Assembly: GCF_026151205.1 (NCBI RefSeq)
Contig: NC_087077.1
Coordinates: 250,001-310,000 of the forward strand
Direction: 5' to 3'
Length of the DNA stretch: 60,000 nucleotides
Origin: Bolinopsis microptera
Lineage: Eukaryota; Ctenophora; Tentaculata; Lobata; Bolinopsidae
In this document: one piece after another, positions 5,491 to 56,600 of the stretch
How the letters are laid out: each line of letters starts with the position of its first letter
Numbering within the stretch: position 1 is the stretch's first letter
The notes under the pieces: generated by a model
What the model saw: only the letters and a program-made list of their open reading frames with translations
Database searches by the model: none
Told to the model about the DNA's origin: nothing
Translations under genes and position numbers: made by a program

Positions 5491-6554
5491 TACTCATCAC
5501 AGTAGTACAGAACAGATCCCTGGAGGTGAACACAGTGCTCATTACACAGAACCAAGCAATGTAATCGTAGCACTGCAACTAAAAGCTGTATCATCCTACT
5601 CATATGATGATTGGGCAGGCAGAGGACGTGCAAACTGTAGCTGTCACGTGACTGACGTAACAACCATTATACAGCGAGACTAAAGGACTGTGGGGATATC
5701 TAAGAGACTGACAGTAAAAGGCGTAGTGTGATTAATTTTGCCCTGATTATATCGGAGCGATCTGGGCACGATTTTCATACAACAAACTTGTCAAAAGTCA
5801 ATGAACTGAAGCCACAGTGTGAACAGAACATTTGGGTAATTAATGCTTTTGTGTAAGACTGGAATAACACATGTATCTATTAGCAATACAAGCTAGAACC
5901 CGTCTACCCTAAAAGTGGGTCAAGACTCGAGAGATCAAAAATAAGTATTACCTAATTAATTCGCGTTTTTGACCCCACTGGAGTCAAAATTTTGGCACTA
6001 AAATTCTTTTATACCCTGCCAATTTTTAATTTTTTTCATGCTTATTTGAAGGCATTAAAGCATTTGCCCAGCAAAAAAATTTCAGTTTGTATATCTTTTA
6101 CGGTTTTTTGCGGAAGTCGCGTTAAAGTGTATGCCGAGGTGTCAGTAAAATGCACGGATCCAGATAACATATTTATAATATTCATGGCTGGATTCTACAC
6201 AAAAAAAGAAAGCGGTTGTGATTAGATCTTCGAAGTCTTTGCATCGTTTTAATTACATCAATTCTGAGACATTATACTTAAAGTAAACTACAACAATACG
6301 ATTCATATACAATTGAAATAAAAAAAAACTAAAAGCAGTGGGAAAATCCTGATGAACTGAAATTTAAAAAAAAGAAACTGAAAGCCGTTAAAAATGACTC
6401 TTATCTTAATCTCTTATCTAAATACCGGATAACTGATTCTCGAAAACACTTAAAATCACAACAAAAACCTGTAAATTTATACTATTTAAGTAAAAAAATG
6501 TAATATGCCCGTCACTGGAATAAATGTATAACAAAATAAAATCTACAAAATATA
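5491..6554. other. No gene seen
   Basis: AT-rich sequence without a recognisable exon, RNA gene or mobile element. Short open frames show no family resemblance. Confidence 0.5.
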
Positions 6555-7905
6555 CTAAAACTAAAACTAAGCTCCCGCTGATTTAAAAGTAAGTGTTACA
6601 TCAGGGTTTCCATACCCCCAAACCGTTCAAGGGTTTTCAATTGGGTCTGGTAAACCCCTCTCTAGCGTCCATACCTTTCTTTGTCCGCTTTACTAATATA
6701 GGCTCAAATACTAAAGCGTCTACTAGAATGACAGAAAGTGCTTTACTGAGTGAGGAATATAGTGAGGCTATGGTACTAAAAAATCTACATCATGATCAAT
6801 ATCTAAAAAATGTAACTAATTTACAACTTCTTATACCTTTCTTTATGTAACTCTTATGGTTAGAGCCTCTATTAGGGAGATTGTGAGGTAAGTATAACCG
6901 ACATACGACTGTTTACAAGTCTTACACTCCATTAAAATTAAATGAGGGTTATAAACTCTGACAAGATTTTACTTTGTGTTATAGGGAAAACTTTTTTAGA
7001 AGGTGACTACTACAATGGATCAGGGGGACAGGAATTTTGCTTACAAACATAACATATACTCACAAGCAGGCACCCGGGTCGACAGCCCCGAACCGCCCTC
7101 GACTGTTCGGAGTCCGGTTCCGGATCTGGCTTTTCAGTTGTTTCCTCTCATTAACACAGATTTAAAGTTCCACTGCACGTACTTATTGTGTACAAGCAAG
7201 CCACCGATAGTTTGATTCTTTCGATGACTCACGATTACACTGTCCACACGTACCAGCTTCTTCAGGGCCGGTCAAGGTAGAAGGTGCTTATACATATGGA
7301 TAATGCCCCCCATGTTTGGGAAGTGCTGGATTTGATCCATCACCAATGGGTATTAAACAGCAGTCCGACTCATCCTTGACTTAAGGGTATACAAGTTTTT
7401 CCATTAGCTATATCACTAATTTTTAAAGGCATCTTCTATACTACTGGAATGATAACTCGGCTATATATATTATATATTTTATTACTAAATATATAACTTG
7501 TCAGAGTAATAACTATTTAATTTATGGAGTTGAGAACTTGTAACAGTCGTAGTAGGATATACTACTTCTAATCTCCCTAAGAGATTTTCTAACATAAAAG
7601 CCCACAATTAAGAAAGTATCAGAAGTTGTAAGTTAGTAAATCACTTTTTAGATATTGATCTTGATTGAGATTTTAGTGTCTATAGCTTATATAACTGTTC
7701 ACTTATACCACCTTTCTGTATTATCGTGGACGCCTCTTGAATTTAAACCTGCAATAAGACAAGCAGATAGGGAAAAGGCCATGTAAGCTAGAGAAGGGTT
7801 TCTAACCAGACACAATTGAAAACCCTTGAGCGGTATGGGGGATGAACACCCTCGATCGTAAACCACAACCTATTTAAATCCGCTGGAGCTGAAGTTTAGT
7901 TTTAT
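6555..7905. mobile_element. Old 1.35-kb element with about 150-bp terminal inverted repeats
   Basis: The segment 6555-6710 is a diverged reverse complement of about 7735-7905. Matched blocks include gctcccgctgatttaaa against the complement of tttaaatccgctggagc, and a shared internal block caagggttttcaattg. Arms look roughly 75-80% alike by eye with several indels. Nothing inside resembles a transposase, so it is either a non-autonomous DNA transposon or a foldback element. Exact ends and target duplication are not resolved. Confidence 0.65.
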
Positions 7906-44698: not shown

Positions 44699-47600
44699 GT
44701 AAGACATTCATTTGTTGTTTTCCAATGCATTTGAGCTGTTCCAATAATTAAAAAATTTGTGATGTGGTATTTTGTTTTCTATGCATATTCAACTATCAAA
44801 GTCTTAGACTCAAACTGGAAACGGCTAGAAGAAATCACAATCTTTTCAAGTTGATTCAACTGTTATCATACTTACTTATAAATTTCAGATAACTTGGTGA
44901 ATCTTGACATCGAAAAGAGTTTAAAGGCTACAGAACTACAGAATGTTGATCACTCTTACAATGAGAATTTGGAAAAGATGCTGACTACAATACATGGCAT
45001 TAGTGAGTTTTACTTTAAATTACAATACAAAGTTATTATGAAATCAAGATCATAATCTATACTAATAATCCCAATAAATGTGTGGGTGTTCCTGTCTGTC
45101 TGTCTGTAATTTACGAATGGTTAACTCGAGAAAATGGTAAGAGATATGGGACTGGTTTTTTTTGGTATAGTCACGCCGACAAAACTCTAAAGTAACGATT
45201 ATATACTTGTCAGGTCAAATGTTCATGTTGGTGAACTCTAAAGTAACGATTATATACTTGTCAGGTCAAATGTTCATGTTGGTGAACTCTAAAGTAACGA
45301 TTATATACTTGTCAGGTCAAATGTTCATGTTGGTGAACTGTAAAGTAACGATTATATACTTGTCAGGTCAAATGTTCATGTTGGTGAACTCTAAAGTAAC
45401 GATTATATACTTGTCAGGTCAAATGTTCATGTTGGTGAACTCTAAAGTAACGATTATATACTTGTCAGGTCAAATGTTCATGTTGGTGAACTCTAAAGTA
45501 ACGATTATATACTTGTCAGGTCAAATGTTCATGTTGGTGAACTCTAAAGTAACGATTATATACTTGTCAGGTCAAATGTTCATGTTGGTGAACTCTAAAG
45601 TAACGATTATATACTTGTCAGGTCAAATGTTCATGTTGGTGAACTCTAAAGTAACGATTATATGTACTTGTCAGGTCAAATGTTCATGTTGGTGAACTCT
45701 AAAGTAACGATTATATGTACTTGTCAGGTCAAATGTTCATGTTGGTGAACTCTAAAGTAACGATTATATACTTGTCAGGTCAAATGTTCATGTTGGTGAA
45801 CTGTAAAGTAACGATTATATACTTGTCAGGTCAAATGTTCATGTTGGTGAACTGTAAAGTAACGATTATATACTTGTCAGGTCAAATGTTCATGTTAGTG
45901 AACGTGACGATACCAAGTTTCCCGGTGGTGTTTGTTAGTAACGAGTTCACCACTTTCTATCGATATTCACGTAACGATGTGTACCTGAAGGATGCTAGAC
46001 TAGCGTTTATGATGGGACCCTGTACCAGAAAGGGAATATTACGTGAGATAAAACATACTCTTGAAGCCTCAAACGAGAACACACTGGATTATGTGCTCTA
46101 CACTAAGGATGGTATACCTGTTCCCACCACTATTGGTCTCTTGCGAGTCAAAAAACCGGATCATCACAACAACGACTCGTACTTTGCCATGACGTTTGAT
46201 CCGTTCAAGAGTAAAGATGGACCTGTCGAAGGAGGTATAAAGTTTATTACTCTTGCAGTAGCTTATGTGGAATGAATTCTGGTAACCAGACTTAAATGTT
46301 CTTGCATGAACTCTTCGTTGATTTTTTTTTCGTGACACGTGAGTAACGTTGTTATCCGCAGAAAAAGACCCGGAGAAAGAGTTGAATGTTTGGTTGGGAG
46401 AAAAGTCTCTTGTTGCACCGATATTGAAGAACAAGGATAAAGTATTGTATACGAAACATAAATCATTCAAAAGGTGTGTGTTCAAAAAGATTATTCGACT
46501 CTATTTATATTGTTGGGTCCGGGTCATTTTCTATCAGGTTTGCTACCGGTCCCATTAGAATTGGATGTAGAAATGTGGTTGAAACCGAACTTTTAATTTC
46601 TACCACATTTCCAGACCCGGCCCCATTTCGAATGGACCGGTAATTTTTACATGATACCCTTGGCTAAGGAGTCCTTAAATTTTTCAGGAAGATATTCCAA
46701 AGATTTACACAATTGTTTGAGAGCGTTAACCTTCTGGCGGACTCAACTATTCGTAAAACATGGGACTGGTTTATACTTCTTGCCAGTATCTGGGCAACTT
46801 TTTCAGTTCCTGTTCAAGTCTGTTTCGATGAAAAGATCTATTACTCCAAAGATGTAAGTCGTTTCACTACCTATTTTTACATCAAATTGAATTGAAGTTG
46901 CATATCAAACCTATTTCAAGCTTATGATTTTGCTGGGTTCTATCTTTTGTTATATTGGCTTCGTGATTGCTTCTAAGTTCTACAATCTACAACGATTTAA
47001 TCGTTCAAATTTATTCCAGATTGATTTGATAACGGATATTTTGTTTCTCATTGATATGGTAATGAACTTCCGCACTACATTCGTAAACGCTGATGGGCTT
47101 GTCATCCTGACTAGTAAAAAGATGGCGACCCATTATTTGAAAGGGTGGTTTATTGTTGATTTATTGACTGCTGTACCCTGGCAGTTTCTACAGCTCATCA
47201 AGCCAGCCAAGGTAAGTTGACAATGGATTAATTTCCGAATGATTGATTGATTGGGGGACTGGTCCGTAGTACCAGCCAATGTTTACTCAAAAGTAATATA
47301 TAATTGAAATAAGTTAAATATTCATCCCCGAGGGGCACGCAGATTATAATTGTGATGTTATCTATTAAAACTATTCGATTAAAATTTTATTGGTCGAGTC
47401 GACTGGCCCTGATCTGCAAACATATTTGATATTGGTAACTTTATGATGCTGCCTCACCGCAATTAGGTGTGTTATCAGTGTAGATATGCGCTATGTGGCA
47501 GTGAAATAAGGAATGTGCTGTTAGAATGGTAGGTGGTTAGAAATGTTGTCCTGATTCAGATTGTTTAATTTGAGCTGTATGAGTTTGGTTTTGAGTGATT

Positions 47601-50600
47601 ATTGACTATGTTCTTTGTGATTTACGTAATCCAGGTAGGTTGTGGAGTAAAAATGGTGGCCATTCGTCGTTGCAGCCAGCACTTTGCAAGTCTAGTAGTA
47701 CTTTTTTTGACGAATTCTTATATATGTTGATAGAAAATATACTGGATGGGCATGTAATGCGAGTGTTATGCTCTGAAATAGCGAGCATTGGGCCTTTATA
47801 AAAGATGCTAGATCTCAGGTCAGTCTGTGAGTAAATTGATAACCAGTCTAAGTTTTGTTCGTGTGTCGTTCCTTGTTTGGGTGTGTTAGGAGGGAAAAGT
47901 TCTGAAATCGATTTAGGTAACAAACTAGACATATTTCGAATTTTGTGCAGTAAAATAAGTGCGTTTTTAACGATAACCCCTTGAACGGTTAAGACCTCGT
48001 GTTCTTTAAATGCTAGTTTTGTGTGCTCTGGCAGTTTTCCGTCCTTGTAGTAGTAGTTCACATTTCCGGCCATAACTGCCCTCATACCTTGTTTTTGTTT
48101 AGCAAAAAGAGATTCTATAAGAGATTTTGAAGCAAATCCCCAGACAAGTGAGCAGAAGTTTAAATGGGACTGAACAAAACTTTGGAAAATCTGTAAACGG
48201 GCCTTCATTGGCAATTTATGTTTTATCCTGTAAATCCCCAATAAATCTTGACATCTTGCTCCTCAGTGCTTTTATGTGGCTACTCCAGTTAAGCTTTTCA
48301 TCTACAATTACACCAAGAAACTGGGCTTCAGTTTTACGTTCTAATACTGTATTTTCTATTTGTACTTTAATCAATGATGGTTCTATGCGCTTTTTCGAGA
48401 AAATCATATAACACGTCTTTTTTAGATTTAGTGCTAATCCGTTGCTATTAACCCACCGTGATAATGTTTCCGTTAGTTGGTTGACCCTTAGCATTAGTTC
48501 TTGGACATTGGAACCGTTAATAATGATATTTGCATCGTCTGCATAAAGTATGAATTTTACCATCATGTTAGAAATACCGGGAAGATCGTTGATGTATATG
48601 ACGAAAAGTAAGGGACCTAGTATGCTCCCTTGTGGAACACCATGCACAATAGGCTTGTGGGACGAATGTGAATTGTTTATTGCTACATAGCATGCAGTTA
48701 CTATAGATTTCCCAGTGTTGTTTAGGTGGAGGCCGTCTCGTGCGAGGTGAGGCAGACCAAAATTCAGGTTGTCAAACAGGTGAAAATTGGCCGAACGTAG
48801 AGAAAGGTGGAGAAGCAGTTCGTTCAGGTTGTCAATTCTGTCGTTCAGCTCAAAATAGGGGTCTGCACTCAGGTTAAGAGGTGTGATAGCGTCAAAAATG
48901 AATTCCGTTCTGAATTTACTTGTGAAATGCTTTAGGTGGTTGTGCAAAGTCATGGGATCAGTTCGACCGTATCTGAGATCATTAACTCCGGCACTTATCA
49001 GGACTAGATCGGACTGTTCAATTAAGGCTTGGTGTTGAGCTAAGTCTCTCAGATGGAATAGGTCTTCTCTGAATGCGATGATCGGCTCTTTGAGAAGTGA
49101 ACAGTCAAAGGTGCGATTCTTAGAGTCAGACAAAATGAGAACTCGCAGATGTCGTTGCGGGGTTTGGTGATCCTCATGGTGCGGTGATGACAGACCTGGT
49201 GACATTACGCGTCCTTGGTGTCGTCTGTTCCTCTTGTTTGGTCCGGGGTCCTCTAGCAGTCTGAACGTAATACTCATTCGTGGCCCCTCAAAATTCTCCA
49301 CAGATGTCGTTGGAACGGAGTGATCCCATTCATCTTGGCTACGTCTTGACATCGCATAGAGTGAAGCATGAGTAGCAGTAAAAGTCACCTTCTTGTACTT
49401 ACCAGGGATCTTCCTCCGAAATACCACCTCTCTAGGAGAGCCAAGTGACAGAGTGATGATGTTACTATCTCTTGAGATACTGGCTTCGTTGTCTGAGTGG
49501 GGTGGGATGCACGAGTGGGGAGCATCATAGGAAGTGACCATGACAGAGTTGAAATTAAATTCTGGGTGACGGGTCTTAAGTACCTTGATAATTCCACTCA
49601 AATAAGATGATTCAGGCACGTCTCTAGCTGGATGGAGACCGCCGGAATAGCGATAAGAAAACTGACCATAGTATGCAACACGTCTATTAGGAAAAGTGGG
49701 TCATATATAACGTCATCGTTCAGTAAAGAAGTCGAAAATGTTTCAAAACAGGAACCATCAAGTGTCTCAAATGGTAATGTACCTGGTTCTGAGTCTGTAA
49801 TGTTACCATGTGGACGTTGGCTAGGAGGAGTGGAAGGGATCAGCGGAGGACTGCAGCGTGTGTTCGTAGCTCCAGTAGTAGTTGAAGCGAGCGTTTGTCC
49901 TTGGGCGATGTCTTTCTGGAGTTCTTCAAACTGCTTTCTTGCGCTTTCCACACGTTTTGTTGAGTCTTCAGTGTGCCTCGTAATCATGTCAGTTAGATTA
50001 TTGACAGTGTTAAATAAAAGATTCAATAAACCATCTTGTTCTTGGCCAACTAAAAGCTGAAAGTGACCTCTCAGGGCGTCCCGAGCCCCATTAATTCCCT
50101 TGTCGCTACGGGTTCTACGAGGTAGCTTGCTAACGATATCAGGATCTAATATGAGGTCGCTCTCCCTCATGATCTGTTCTTCGGATAACTTATCAATTAG
50201 CTCTAGGCAGGTTAATGGGGAGAATCCACCGATCAATCTATCTTCTAATCCTGTCATATCACTTACTTTAAACAAAAGTTTTTAGCAGCTTTTTGTATTG
50301 GACGGTTCTGATTCCCGTACCGCTTAGCCTCAGTCTGTCAGTCGTTGGTTGGTAGATAGGTAGTTACCACAGTCCGCGCCACAAGCAAGTGCAATTTAAC
50401 TGTTATCTACATAGATAAGCGAGGGCAAACGTACTACAGAATGTTTAAGAGATATGAATGGGAATGTTTAAGAGATATGAATGAAGAATGTTTAAGAGAT
50501 ATGAATCCCACCCATGAATGAGCCTGCATAGATGTTTAGTTTTAAAAGTAAATTTTTTCCCGATCCATGACTCCTGTGCTGAAGGCACAAAAGAGCCAAG

Positions 50601-53600
50601 GACAAGGGTTAGCGAACGAGGTTTTTCTTTTCGTATATAATGGTAGCTTGCGACCGTCGTGCGTCGTCATACAAATGTGCCATCACGGATCGGGAAATTG
50701 AGAAGCCATCCACAAAAGAAAAGCGGCTGCATTCCCTGCATTTCTTGTTTTAACTTTTGCTCTCTTATTTTTTATCAGATTTTCTAAACAACATCGAATT
50801 CCAGGCGTTTAGGTACCTCAAGCTCACCAGGGTGTTACGTATGGCTAAAGTGGCCTTTCACTTAGACGAGTACACTAAAAACGGTCCCATTTCCCTGATC
50901 CTCATCATCATGTATTTCATTATGCTGGGTCACTTGATCGCGTGCGGCTGGTTTTGGTTGGGGCGGAGTGACTATGAGAGTAATATTGCTGGCTGGGTAA
51001 CTTATCACCTTCAGAATAACCATTTCGTTCTTACTCCTGATATTGTTGGCGAACAAGGTTTCTAGTTCACATCTTTTTGATTTTAATTTTATATTTGTTT
51101 ATTTAATTATAAAACTTAAGATGCATCTTGCTTGTCATAAACTACCAAATTATCATCTTTATTGTTTCTTTTGTTAAAATGAACATGTTCACATCAAATT
51201 TTTCTCATTGAATTGGCTTTAATTTTATCCTGATAAGAAAAGCCTCAATTTTCATATATATCAAAATGCTACCCACAGACTTACAAGAGGATTTCTACTC
51301 AGCCTCCCTTTATTTCGTCATGACTATTTTCTGTACCGTTGGATTCGGAAACATTGCACCCTGGAACGTTTCGGAACAGATTTTCTGTGTCATAGTCATG
51401 TTGATCGGAGGTGGGATCATTATTTTTAATGCTGATTTTCTGATATCTTCCGTCATTTTCTCATCCCGTCATTTTCTCATCCCGTAATTTTCTCTTCCTA
51501 CTTAATTTGCTGTTAAAAATAATCTTTAGAAAATTACTGATATAATGTTAAAATTTCTACTTTGCAGCGTTCTTCTACGCTATAATCTTCGGGTCCGCTA
51601 CGAATATCATTATGAGAATGGGAGCCCAGCAGTCTCGGTTCCTGGACCAACAGAAAGATCTGGATTTATACACCTCCGTCAACAAGTTTCCTCTTGATCT
51701 CAAGGTTACCAATCCTTGCTGTGATTCATTATTATAAATTGTTTGTCGGTTCTGTCCCTGTTCCACACAGAAATGTATACAAATTGTATACAAGTAAACC
51801 CTCATCAGTCTGTTGTTATCACTGATATTGTATACAAGTAAACCCTCATCAGTCTGTTGTTATCACTGATATTGTATACAAGTAAACCCTCATCAGTCTG
51901 TTGTTATCACTGATATTGTATACAAGTAAACCCTCATCAGTCTGTTGTTATCACTGATATTGTATACAAGTAAACCCTCATCAGTCTGTTGTTATCACTG
52001 ATATTTCAAGTAAACCCTGGCCCTCATCAGTCTGTTGTTATCACTGATATTGTATACAAGTAAACCCTCATCAGTCTGTTGTTATCACTGATATTGTATA
52101 CAAGTAAACCCTCATCAGTCTGTTGTTATCACTGATATTGTATACAAGTAAACCCTCATCAGTCTGTTGTTATCACTGATATTTCAAGTAAACCCTCATC
52201 AGTCTGTTGTTATCACTGATATTTCAAGTAAACCCTGGCCCTCATCAGTCTGTTGTTATCACTGATATTGTATACAAGTAAACCCTCATCAGTCTGTTGT
52301 TATCACTGATATTGTATACAAGTAAACCCTCATCAGTCTGTTGTTATCACTGATATTGTATACAAGTAAACCCTCATCAGTCTGTTGTTATCACTGATAT
52401 TTCAAGTAAACCCTGGCCCTCATCAGTCTGTTGTTATCACTGATATTTCACCTTCTCAGAATCGTATGGAGGACTATTTCTACTACCACTGGTTCAACAG
52501 TAAAGGTATTGAGCACTCCCAGATGATGCAGGATTGGCCCAGGACCCTCAAGGAAGACACTTCTCTCTTCCTTCACAGGATTCTGTTTGCGGAGTGGCCT
52601 GTGTTTAACGAGGCTAGTACAGGCTGTAGACGGTCTCTGAGCTCACTTGTTGAGAGGCATGGTAGGTCACACTGGATCATATTATCAACGCTTCTTGTAC
52701 GTAACGACGGAATTACAATATCAGTCGAATTATTGATGAATAAAATTAGAGTATTGACAACTTGAATGTTTACTGGAGTTTTACTGTAGTTTTACTGTAG
52801 ATTTACTGTAGTTTTACTGTAGTTTTACTGTAGTTTTACTGTAGTTTTACTGTAGTTTTACTGTAAGTTTCAATGTAGGTTTCACTCCTGGAGATTACAT
52901 AGTCCACGAAGAAGACTGTGTTGATGCAGTGTACTTTCTGGTTCGTGGTCACGTGAAGATTCTGAAGGACGGTGACGTCATTGGAATTCTAAGTAAGTCT
53001 GTAATTTATTGGAGAATTTTTAAATCGTATCTTATATTTCTTGTAATTGTAAAGCATTTTTATTTTTACCTTTGAGCGTTCGATACGTTTATCATGTTTC
53101 TTGTTTAGCAATGGGAGACACATTCGGAGAGAAATGGTGGCCGACAGCCGCGTCAGGCAAAGCAAACGCAGACATACAAGCAATGACATACGCCGAAATA
53201 GAGGTGTTGACCCACGAGGTAAACATTTATTGTTTCTACGGATTTATAATTTAAATTTACCAAAATTCACCAAATTTAGCTGACACATGTATGAATTGTA
53301 ATTAATTAATGAATTGCAAACTACCTACGCGCTACGATCACAGTGTAGCACTGAGACCCAGTTAACTAGTGTAATATGGTAAGCTAGTTGCAGCAGTATT
53401 TATATATGTATTAGGCTTTTTAGATCTTTTAGAATATTCTAGTATTAGTGTTAAATAACCGTTAGGATTAGTATAAGATTAGATTAGATTAGTGGAATAG
53501 ATTATGGATGGTTTTGCGGAGGAAGGCACGTGTTAGTCAGGTTAGCTAGTTAAGTTAGGTTATTGGACAGACTGGGCCGCGCGGTGTCACGTGGTTCGCC

Positions 53601-56600
53601 ATGTGATGTCACGTGACCCAGTGCTGGTAGGTTTTGCCTGCCCCGTTAGCGGCAGTTCTTCGGGAAGCATTTAACGGTAAGGTTGTAAAAGTTACCGCTT
53701 CCGAGGACAGTGTAGCGTGGCCTTCGAGTCGCTAGTCTTGGTTTATTGATCTAATATTAATATATTACCTTTCGAGACTTCTTGTTCGAACCCCCTGTTT
53801 CCTTTGTTCCTACCTAACTTAGGACTCGATCAAGTCATTCGATCATTTAATGTTGTACGGCACTCAGAAGCCTGTAAGAGTTAAAGTTGCAGAGCTTGAG
53901 AGCTAGAGATTTGCAAGTACCGCGTACGATACTTCAAGATCGTACCCGTGTATTTCTTAAGTACTGTGTACGACACTTCTCTATCGTACCCTTGTACATT
54001 CTAATTACCCGTGTACGCCACTTCGCTACCGTACCTTTGTGAGCAGGCACTGTTGACCATCGGTACGCCCGGGAGGACTGTTCTGGTGCCTAACCTTATT
54101 TTACACTATCTGGAGAACCTAGGAAAGTGGTACTATGTCTGGACTCACAAGGATGGAACAGGAATTGAAGGAACTTGTGGAGGAGGAAAAGCAGATTGTT
54201 GACCAAATGGTGGAACTGAAGATGGAAATGAAGTCTTGGGACGCAGTTGACAAAGAGACGGAGATAAAGGAGAGCAAAGTGGAGTTGTTTGATTTGGGTG
54301 AGAAGAGAGAGAAGTGTTTGAACAGAGTGAGAGAGTTGGAGAGAGATATGATCAAGTGGAGACATGAAACAGAACTTGAACGAGAGGGATTGATGAGGGA
54401 ACAAGAAGTAAAGTTGGAAAACACGAGCAACTTATTTCAAGAAAGAGCGAGAACAACTGAGAGCGATAGTCTGCAACCCGGAAATACAGAGAGAGATAAG
54501 GGAGTATACACGATGAACTGCAAGGAACCAAAGTACAGGAAGAATGATGACTTTTGTACATTTTTGCAGAGATACGAGCAGTGGGTCTTGTTATGCGGAA
54601 TAAAAGACAATCTCGACTTGAGACTTGCCGGTCAGATAGAAGACGATGCAAAGTTCAAGAAAGTCAAGAACATTCGGCTGTCGAGTGAGGAGAGAAATGA
54701 CGTGAAAATGCTGATCAGTGCGGTGAAACGAGAGCTATATCCCGCCACGGATGCGAGAATCATGAGGACAACGTTTCACAAGATGAAGCAGGAAGCGTTA
54801 GAGAGCGTGGAGCAGTTCGCAGAGAGAATACAGGACACTGCTGAGAAGATTTACCCGAGGGCTGTGGAGAGAGAGAGTGCGGGTATCACTGTGTTGATAC
54901 AGGGCGTAAAGGACCCTGCTATTAAAAGACGGCTCCTTCAGATGAACACGGAGACAGAGGATTTTGATAGCGTGATCCGGCTAGCTGTACAGGAGGAGCA
55001 CATATCCAAGGCAGTAGAGGGAGATACGGACAGTGATCCAATGACTACACTGGAATTCTCGGCACCTACTTACGGTGTTGGCAGGCAAGGTGATAGAGAA
55101 AAGGATGAGAATGACTGTCAGATGTGTGGGAAGAGAGGTCACAAGGCTGACTCGTGTTGGAGCAATATAGTGTGCCAGCTGTGTGAAGGTAAAGGGCATG
55201 TTGCCAGTGTTTGCAGGAGTAGAGTGAGTCCGGTTGAGCAGAGTAGCAGAGGAGCGAGTAGAGGTGCGAGTAGAGATGCGAGTAGAGGAGAGAGTCGCAG
55301 GCCGGTGATTTGTTATAATTGTCACGGTGAGGGTCACATTCAAAGATTCTGCAACGTCGACAGAGAGCGATCTGGAGGACGAGGAGGGCAGTACAGACCC
55401 ACAGAGACTGAACAGTATGGAATGCAGAGAGACCATTTAAACGGGCGTGCGACTGGACAAAATCAATTTCCCGTCAGTCGCAATTAAAATCATCTGGGGA
55501 GCAGAAGGAGGTAAATGCAGTAAACTGGGAGCACATCTTGGTGGCTGGGAGTTGCAGAGGAGTGGAAGCCTACCTTTTTGTTGACAGCGGGTCGGCTGTG
55601 AGTATTGTGTCCACGGGTTTTGTGAGAGAACTGGGTCTAGAGAGCGGAATCCGACCGTGTGGCATGACATTGAAGTCATTTTCTCAAGACAAGATACAAA
55701 TCAGGGGAGAGTTAGAGCTACAGGTAGTAGTTGCTGGCAATAGATTTGTACACACCTTCGTGGTAACTGATCTGTTAGACACAGAATTCTTGATTGGAGA
55801 TGATTTCTTGAGGTCAAATAGGGTAACTCTGGACTACAGCAAGTGCAGACTGGTGCTGACTAATGGAGATAGTGTACCATTCACGGAGAAGCCGGAGAAT
55901 GTCAAGCAGCAGATAAAAGTTAGATGTAGCAAGGTCACAATTATTCCTCCTAACACGGTGCAGTACATCAGGGGAAAATTACAGGCGAAAGGGGTGAATT
56001 TTAAAGGTGTGATTAAGCCACAGTACAAGCAAGGTATTGGGGACACGGGCATTTCATTCGCTCATGCAGTTGTGCACTCTGATAAAAGATTGGTCCCGTT
56101 AAAGTGTGTTAACTCTACTGATGAGCCAATAACGATCCGCAAGAACAAGATCGTCGCACTATTGAAACCTGTAGGCGGTAAGAAATTCATACACGGCGTG
56201 CAGAGGATCAGAGGTCACGATATCGGTGTTAGAGGGACTGCGATTGATAGACAAGCTCAAGATAACAGGGGTCAGACAGAAAAGTTCTGTGGTAAAAGAT
56301 GGACTCAGAATGAGTTGTTGGAGAGTCACGGGCTGAACATGATAAAGGCGACAATGTCTAATGCTGAGGAGGACAGACGAAGCAGAGTTCCATTCAGAAG
56401 GAATTTTGCGGAAGCATCGTGCCAGACAGAGGTTATTCTATTTCTAGATGAGAGATCGGGAGGAGAGGAGTTTACCAGGTCTGTGGGTATCAATACCATT
56501 CCGAATCACAACGCTTCTTCCGTTAGTGAATCCTCTAGTAATGTTACACGTGATCACAACGCTTCTGCCGTTAGTGAATCCTCTAGTAATGTTACACGTG

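Follow-up and report, generated by a model that had tools for sequence, protein, structure and literature searches.

Type IV LINEs (long interspersed nuclear elements) of the CR1/L2 group, such as zebrafish ZfL2-1, have two open reading frames (ORFs), with an SGNH domain in the first (ORF1) and an endonuclease and reverse transcriptase (RT) in the second (ORF2). PHD fingers are also known in CR1/L2 ORF1 and, within the sample of one survey, esterase ORF1s occur only in vertebrate groups (PMC4120745). That survey covers ORF1 domains across the Jockey superfamily, and its text contains zero occurrences of either AlkB or oxygenase. Here we describe LINEs of the ctenophore Bolinopsis microptera in which an AlkB domain stands directly before the SGNH domain, starting from a defective copy in a 60,000-nt stretch of its genome (the window; coordinates are positions within it, and L0xx labels are loci from the window's own assembly). 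The esterase-type ORF1 is of a known kind and the added AlkB enzyme is what sets it apart: an AlkB-SGNH ORF1 within a two-ORF element is, in our assessment, close to certain. Among the literature matches listed, none describes a LINE with AlkB, though subscription papers or Repbase notes may hold one.

In the window, the evidence lies in a minus-strand stop-to-stop frame of 494 aa (48216-49700) with Pfam matches to AlkB, SGNH and RT: 2OG-FeII_Oxy_2 (E 2.3e-14, 54.5 bits against a curated cut-off of 31.2), GDSL_2 (E 4.3e-7, 31.1 bits, slightly below the curated cut-off of 32.9) and RVT_1 (E 2.7e-17). A PDB search with the 48668-49700 part returned human ALKBH3 as the best match (E 1.1e-9), with ALKBH2 at about 4e-7. 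A preliminary description of this DNA, written from the letters and a list of ORFs, had proposed an AlkB domain directly before an SGNH domain in the frame 48216-49619, naming five signature residues (H41, D43, H100, R114 and R120). The residues are at those positions, the pairing is real and proves to be a family trait, and the profile search that it called for places AlkB above the cut-off and the esterase slightly below it. Two details changed: the domain extends upstream of the assigned GTG start at 49619, to about 49685, and the frame, which does hold AlkB and SGNH, also holds RT sequence by way of a deletion. Residue spacing alone was rejected as proof of AlkB because it is too frequent in shuffled sequence: the five-residue pattern appears in 134 of 2000 shuffles of the 48216-49619 frame, and in 2 of the 42 window ORFs of at least 100 aa, the LINE frame included. 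That frequency and the defective state of the window copy speak for a chance look-alike, or for a dead copy with a one-off fusion. For the predicted AlkB domain of the window frame the profile evidence is decisive, however, and the E-values together with the many copies and families that carry the domain refute chance and one-off fusion alike, leaving them a negligible probability.

Those copies were found by searching the assembly to which the window belongs (264,652,675 bases in 232 contigs) with the AlkB segment; the search gave 726 first-look candidates. All of the 150 that were scored had E-values of 4.6e-15 or better and no internal stop; the check for further copies suggested in the preliminary description thus returned significant matches throughout, and several families carry the domain. 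Twenty loci were then chosen to span identity levels and ORF lengths. AlkB lies in an open frame in every one, and the ORF1 frame measures 537-740 aa in 19. L012 is 5′-truncated: its likeness to the window begins inside AlkB, and the remainder of its 518-aa frame comes from unrelated sequence upstream. A single open ORF2 of 996-1242 aa is present in 16 of the 20 (it is split or shortened in L017, L019, L020 and L025). Pfam 2OG-FeII_Oxy_2 exceeded its cut-off in 13 of 15 ORF1 representatives, missing L017 and L019. A second profile, built from nine cellular and phage AlkBs, recovered both (E 2.8e-21 and 2.7e-23, respectively); across 65 ORFs from 26 loci it made 24 matches, each to the ORF1 of its locus, covering all 20 AlkB-picked loci and four of six RT-picked loci at E 2.3e-14 or better. 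Because five of the nine rows had originally been found with LINE AlkB as the query, this result is a check on Pfam and not a blind test.

The RT-picked loci form a sample drawn independently of AlkB: an RVT_1 search gave 6502 candidates, 150 were scored, and eight loci with varied ORF2 lengths were examined. AlkB is whole in four (L035, L036, L037 and L039), partial in two and absent from two, proportions that do not estimate a genome-wide fraction because the sample is small and hand-picked. By Pfam L037 showed only PHD, though it is nearly identical to L036 (2OG-FeII_Oxy_2 at 2.4e-16). The partial cases are L040, which has the C-terminal end of AlkB (read by eye), and L051, with an N-terminal part in a deleted ORF1; L038 is without an open ORF1, though its ORF2 and that of L039 look almost the same. 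The AlkB-SGNH ORF1 is a trait of several divergent LINE families.

The overall build of ORF1 is a weak PHD match (in several families), a variable N-terminal region, AlkB and then SGNH. In a scan of ORF2 from other copies, RVT_1 and endonuclease/phosphatase matches were found in 5 of 5 (the endonuclease below cut-off in L021, L027 and L035); the window copy retains only part of the RT. By these predicted domains, endonuclease and RT in ORF2, the elements are LINEs, that is, non-LTR (non-long terminal repeat) retrotransposons. GDSL matches at E 0.01 or better occur in 12 of the 15 ORF1 representatives (not L020, L021 or L025), all below curated cut-offs, and the Ser, Gly, Asn and His columns of the SGNH alignment are invariant in 15 rows. 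Searched against PDB, the SGNH profile of the other copies matched an ORF1-encoded protein, 4c1b (E 2.4e-8), presumably the zebrafish ZfL2-1 esterase, along with lysophospholipases and platelet-activating factor acetylhydrolases, several of which scored above it. With an SGNH domain and its predicted catalytic residues, ORF1 is of the esterase type, type IV. Two pairs of loci with both ORFs open are nearly identical (L010/L011, 99.8% over 6558 bp; L013/L014, 99.7% over 6781 bp), which points to recent activity.

Is the AlkB domain likely to work as an enzyme? An alignment of 31 rows (19 LINE, 3 Helitron-type, 4 host and human ALKBH2/3, 4 bacterial and 1 phage) has the H, D, H, R and R positions in every row, all 19 LINE rows among them. 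The LINE domain thus keeps the residues expected for iron binding and the arginines expected for 2-oxoglutarate binding. Two tyrosines are also shared, Y11 in 31 of 31 rows and Y13 in 30 of 31 (human ALKBH2 has Phe at the second). One could suppose that the domain is enzymatically dead and is kept in the ORF1 protein (ORF1p) as a nucleic-acid-binding fold: ORF1 proteins bind RNA, no RRM or CCHC match was found among 19 ORF1s scanned, and Pfam misses AlkB in L017, L019 and L037. A fold kept for binding would be expected to lose some of the five metal and 2-oxoglutarate residues, however, and all 19 LINE rows, drawn from divergent families, keep them; moreover, the three ORF1s that Pfam misses match the cellular AlkB profile. 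A dead fold therefore seems improbable. Selection on the domain was assessed by pairwise Nei-Gojobori ratios of nonsynonymous to synonymous change (dN/dS). The ratio is 0.076 for L022/L024, 0.129 for L026/L028 and 0.24 for L011 and the window, low values in the readable pairs of a test that the preliminary description had proposed. L021/L023 gave 0.29, which is unreliable (dS 2.6), and L009/L011 have zero amino-acid changes and almost no silent change. Pairs involving L012 (0.39 and 0.94) are spoiled because its first AlkB residues are unrelated sequence. In the measurable pairs AlkB is under purifying selection.

An active domain might have a target other than methylated bases. Some AlkB homologues act on proteins, and PHD-like fingers precede AlkB in six loci (L023, L027, L035, L036, L037 and L039, all below the Pfam cut-off), so a PHD-AlkB-SGNH protein could be directed at a host protein or chromatin. 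The tyrosines shared with ALKBH2/3 speak against such a target, as does the absence of a Pfam PHD match from 13 of the 19 ORF1s scanned, and we give it even less credence than a dead fold.

Comparison with solved structures bears on what kind of demethylase this could be. The LINE AlkB profile matched ALKBH3 (5e-24) and ALKBH2 (1e-21) in PDB, followed by ALKBH8 (1e-8) and bacterial AlkB (4e-5); chains of DNA N6-methyladenine demethylases appeared only at E 0.001-0.007, and the 36 matches with E-values up to 0.01 included no ALKBH5. These matches are relevant to the proposal that AlkB erases host marks, removing N6-methyladenosine (m6A) from element RNA or N6-methyladenine (6mA) from new DNA and thereby evading readers or silencing. 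The proposal has to be taken seriously because there is a retroelement AlkB that acts as an m6A demethylase: that of an orchid Ty3/Gypsy element demethylates m6A RNA in vitro, a precedent for any such enzyme (PMC9289625). Marking matters, too, since m6A alters the activity of the L1 element, and the eraser ALKBH5 suppresses L1; in the same source m6A aids the element, which is the opposite sign to that expected of an evasive eraser (PMC7873242). With ALKBH3 and ALKBH2 as the closest solved relatives and the N6-methyladenine demethylases far behind, erasure of host marks is an unlikely role, if a better candidate than a dead fold or a protein target.

Demethylation that keeps the element's own nucleic acid copyable seems to us a better account. 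ORF1p would coat element RNA in a ribonucleoprotein, where the AlkB domain would use Fe(II), oxygen and 2-oxoglutarate to strip methyl groups from the RNA bases; single-stranded complementary DNA (cDNA) at the target site is an alternative target. The likeliest substrates would be 1-methyladenosine (m1A) and 3-methylcytosine (m3C), classic substrates of ALKBH2/3 that lie on the base-pairing face and block reverse transcription, and their removal would let a long template stay copyable. This narrows the role suggested in the preliminary description (removal of methyl marks or alkylation damage from the LINE RNA, or action against host RNA marking) to bases of the type that relatives of ALKBH2/3 repair, with removal of m6A or 6mA as the rival. 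SGNH may have the role suggested for it in other LINE ORF1 proteins, contact with lipids or membranes. We infer demethylation itself, the element's own RNA or cDNA as the substrate, and m1A/m3C over m6A. That the domain is a demethylase acting on the element's own nucleic acid is a reading we hold at a little under an even chance; the fuller account, an AlkB-SGNH ORF1 with oxidative demethylation of its own RNA or cDNA, is in our view the best explanation overall, and we consider the case for and against it evenly balanced.

The origin of the domain can be approached through its relatives. The host genome has its own ALKBH2 (L029, with 51% identity to the human protein across the domain) as well as an ALKBH3-like gene (L030). 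The latter, at L030 421-1938, is one open frame with a long, low-complexity N-terminal extension that is RG-rich near its start. In a mixture-model tree, the phylogenetic check envisaged in the preliminary description, the 22 mobile-element rows split from the nine cellular and phage rows with support of 94/94, just below the tool's star threshold. Derivation of LINE AlkB from host ALKBH3 alone was rejected (p 0.009; 0.018 with the Helitron rows added), as was derivation from host ALKBH2 alone (p 0.004; 0.002 with the Helitron rows), and the same holds for grouping the LINE rows with the two ALKBH3s (p 0.008) or with the two ALKBH2s (p 0.023). The joint grouping with both host genes (p 0.001) counts for little, since it splits each of them from its human counterpart. 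The best tree places L026 and L028 outside the other LINE AlkBs, and a single LINE clade is neither shown nor rejected (p 0.33). Over 15 loci, among which three RT groups were distinguished in a comparison made within the set, AlkB distances correlate with those of the RT (Mantel r 0.62, 0 of 5000 permutations), which suggests that AlkB has largely travelled with the replicase. Taken together, the tree tests and this correlation favor a domain acquired long ago and passed on mainly together with the replicase. Among viral contigs, a search with one LINE AlkB (L022) as the query found no relative.

Several observations weigh against the best explanation given above, demethylation of the element's own nucleic acid. 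First, the substrate of AlkB is not something that its sequence reveals, and some conserved positions differ: two residues ahead of the invariant Tyr, 12 of the 19 LINE rows have Thr in place of Asn, against 0 of the 12 other rows, and in R-x-N-x-T-x-R every one of the 19 LINE rows has Ser for the Asn, a change shared with the Helitron, Halomonas and phage rows. Second, the domain matches are incomplete, with the 2OG-FeII_Oxy_2 profile going unmatched over its first 40 to 65 positions in all 13 ORF1s that it detects, and a single-sequence structure model of the window protein was unreadable as a fold (predicted local distance difference test score, pLDDT, 34.6), so AlkB homology is argued from sequence. 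Third, silent sites are saturated in six pairs (L013/L015, L017/L018, L017/L019, L018/L019, L023/L027 and L020/L025). Fourth, the domain is not universal. The preliminary description had been concerned that other copies might lack it; many carry it, but L038 and L052 do not (the latter belongs to another type of LINE, and the 3.3 kb retrieved upstream of its RT holds no AlkB), and L040 and L051 have only parts. Finally, the AlkB and RT trees over the 15 loci differ in places, and ORF1 has probably been exchanged, AlkB included, between LINE subfamilies: L011 and L012 are 98.7% identical over the stretch with ORF2 and 80% over the shared part of ORF1, and L026/L028 show the same contrast (97.6% versus 61-69%). 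Such exchange agrees with the reticulate ORF1 evolution reported for the Jockey superfamily in that survey (PMC4120745).

AlkB and SGNH also meet in a DNA transposon of the same genome. A 3226-aa frame of Helitron type, at C9:15866647-15876327 and covered by two loci (L041 48-4001 and L044 2-5758), contains in order SGNH (E 3e-11), AlkB (7.7e-18), DUF6570, Helitron_like_N (1.5e-23) and PIF1 (1.6e-24); this rolling-circle transposon shares both extra enzyme domains with the LINEs, in the reverse order. Related AlkB frames lie on C9 (L042, with part of SGNH recognized by eye) and C1 (L043), of which the AlkB domain was read. No paper on a Helitron with AlkB was found among the matches listed. 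Ctenophore mobile elements may share an old, distinct AlkB family, apart from cellular ALKBHs and repeatedly paired with SGNH, that spread between retrotransposons and DNA transposons as a portable module for cleaning or unmarking nucleic acid, its order being AlkB-SGNH in LINE ORF1 and SGNH-AlkB-Rep-helicase in the Helitron; we put this forward tentatively, as somewhat less probable than demethylation of the element's own nucleic acid.

The window copy itself is defective, with a frame change in ORF1 and a 3.4-kb deletion that fuses SGNH to RT (Table 1). It lies antisense in an ion-channel intron, as described earlier, between plus-strand channel matches at 46891-47220 (E 1.8e-7, above cut-off) and 50754-51065 (E 1e-3, below cut-off); its extent was earlier put at 48216-50275, and blastn revises this to the span in the table. 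By blastn it follows L012 from 2004 to 2862 (99.8%) and then from 6284 to 7739 (99.1%), joining near window 48689, while the upstream part has 77% identity to L009-L011. The missing sequence lies between SGNH and the middle of the RT, and it is because of this deletion that AlkB, SGNH and RT read in one frame. Directly upstream of AlkB, ORF1 is broken into two frames, and the upstream one, 49598-50281, has no Pfam match. The 5′ end falls within about 20 bases of where L009-L011 start matching each other. The 3′ end is kept: CCCCC is followed by AATC units (three in the window, two each in L009-L012), without poly(A), and L009-L012 terminate in CCCCCAATCAATCA. A 23-bp repeat (2.9 copies, 50438-50506) sits at the very 5′ end of the copy. 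The window copy, L040 and L051 have each lost parts of AlkB, SGNH or ORF2 and are possibly non-autonomous forms. Elsewhere in the window there are a 51-bp tandem repeat (45183-45903; 14.1 copies with 98% matches), most of which reads as an open frame on the plus strand, a 44-bp tandem repeat (51783-52447, 15.1 copies) and a 454-aa frame (54123-55487) without a Pfam match at E 0.01. In this last frame CCHC-like zinc knuckles can be recognized by eye, and it may encode the gag-like protein of some other element.

Table 1. Parts of the LINE copy in the window.
Feature	Position	Strand	Basis and remarks
Defective LINE copy	~47240-50441	minus	blastn against L009-L012; antisense between ion-channel exons
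N-terminal part of ORF1	49598-50281	minus	first ATG of the stretch at 50257; frame differs from that of AlkB
AlkB-like 2OG-Fe(II) dioxygenase domain	49251-~49685	minus	Pfam, ALKBH3 match; H, D, H, R, R intact
SGNH/GDSL esterase-like domain	48690-49148	minus	GDSL_2 match; C-terminal end removed by the internal deletion
Deletion join	48688-48690	minus	blastn; 3.4 kb gone relative to L012 (2862 to 6284)
3′ part of ORF2: rest of RT and C-terminus	47606-48689	minus	two frames; collinear with the 3′ part of L012 ORF2

The LINE AlkB suggests that these parasites may carry their own tool for cleaning or unmarking nucleic acid, and it adds an AlkB lineage paired with an esterase in LINE ORF1. With divergent families and recent copies at hand, it can be tested directly whether methylated bases in the RNA or cDNA of a retrotransposon hold back such an element in an animal, and whether elements counter the effect. 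Replicases of some plant RNA viruses carry AlkB domains, and such viruses resemble these LINEs in being mobile RNA replicators with AlkB. The orchid Ty3/Gypsy element is likewise a retroelement that encodes an AlkB; as its report describes it, that AlkB is of ALKBH5 type and occupies a separate ORF of a plant LTR element, whereas here it lies in a LINE ORF1, is nearest to ALKBH3 and ALKBH2, and is followed by SGNH (PMC9289625). Host and human ALKBH2 and ALKBH3 share family and active-site residues with the LINE domain and are its best PDB matches, but the mobile-element rows lie apart from them in the tree and groupings with them were rejected. Compared with the type IV LINEs of CR1/L2, finally, the difference is that here AlkB precedes SGNH.

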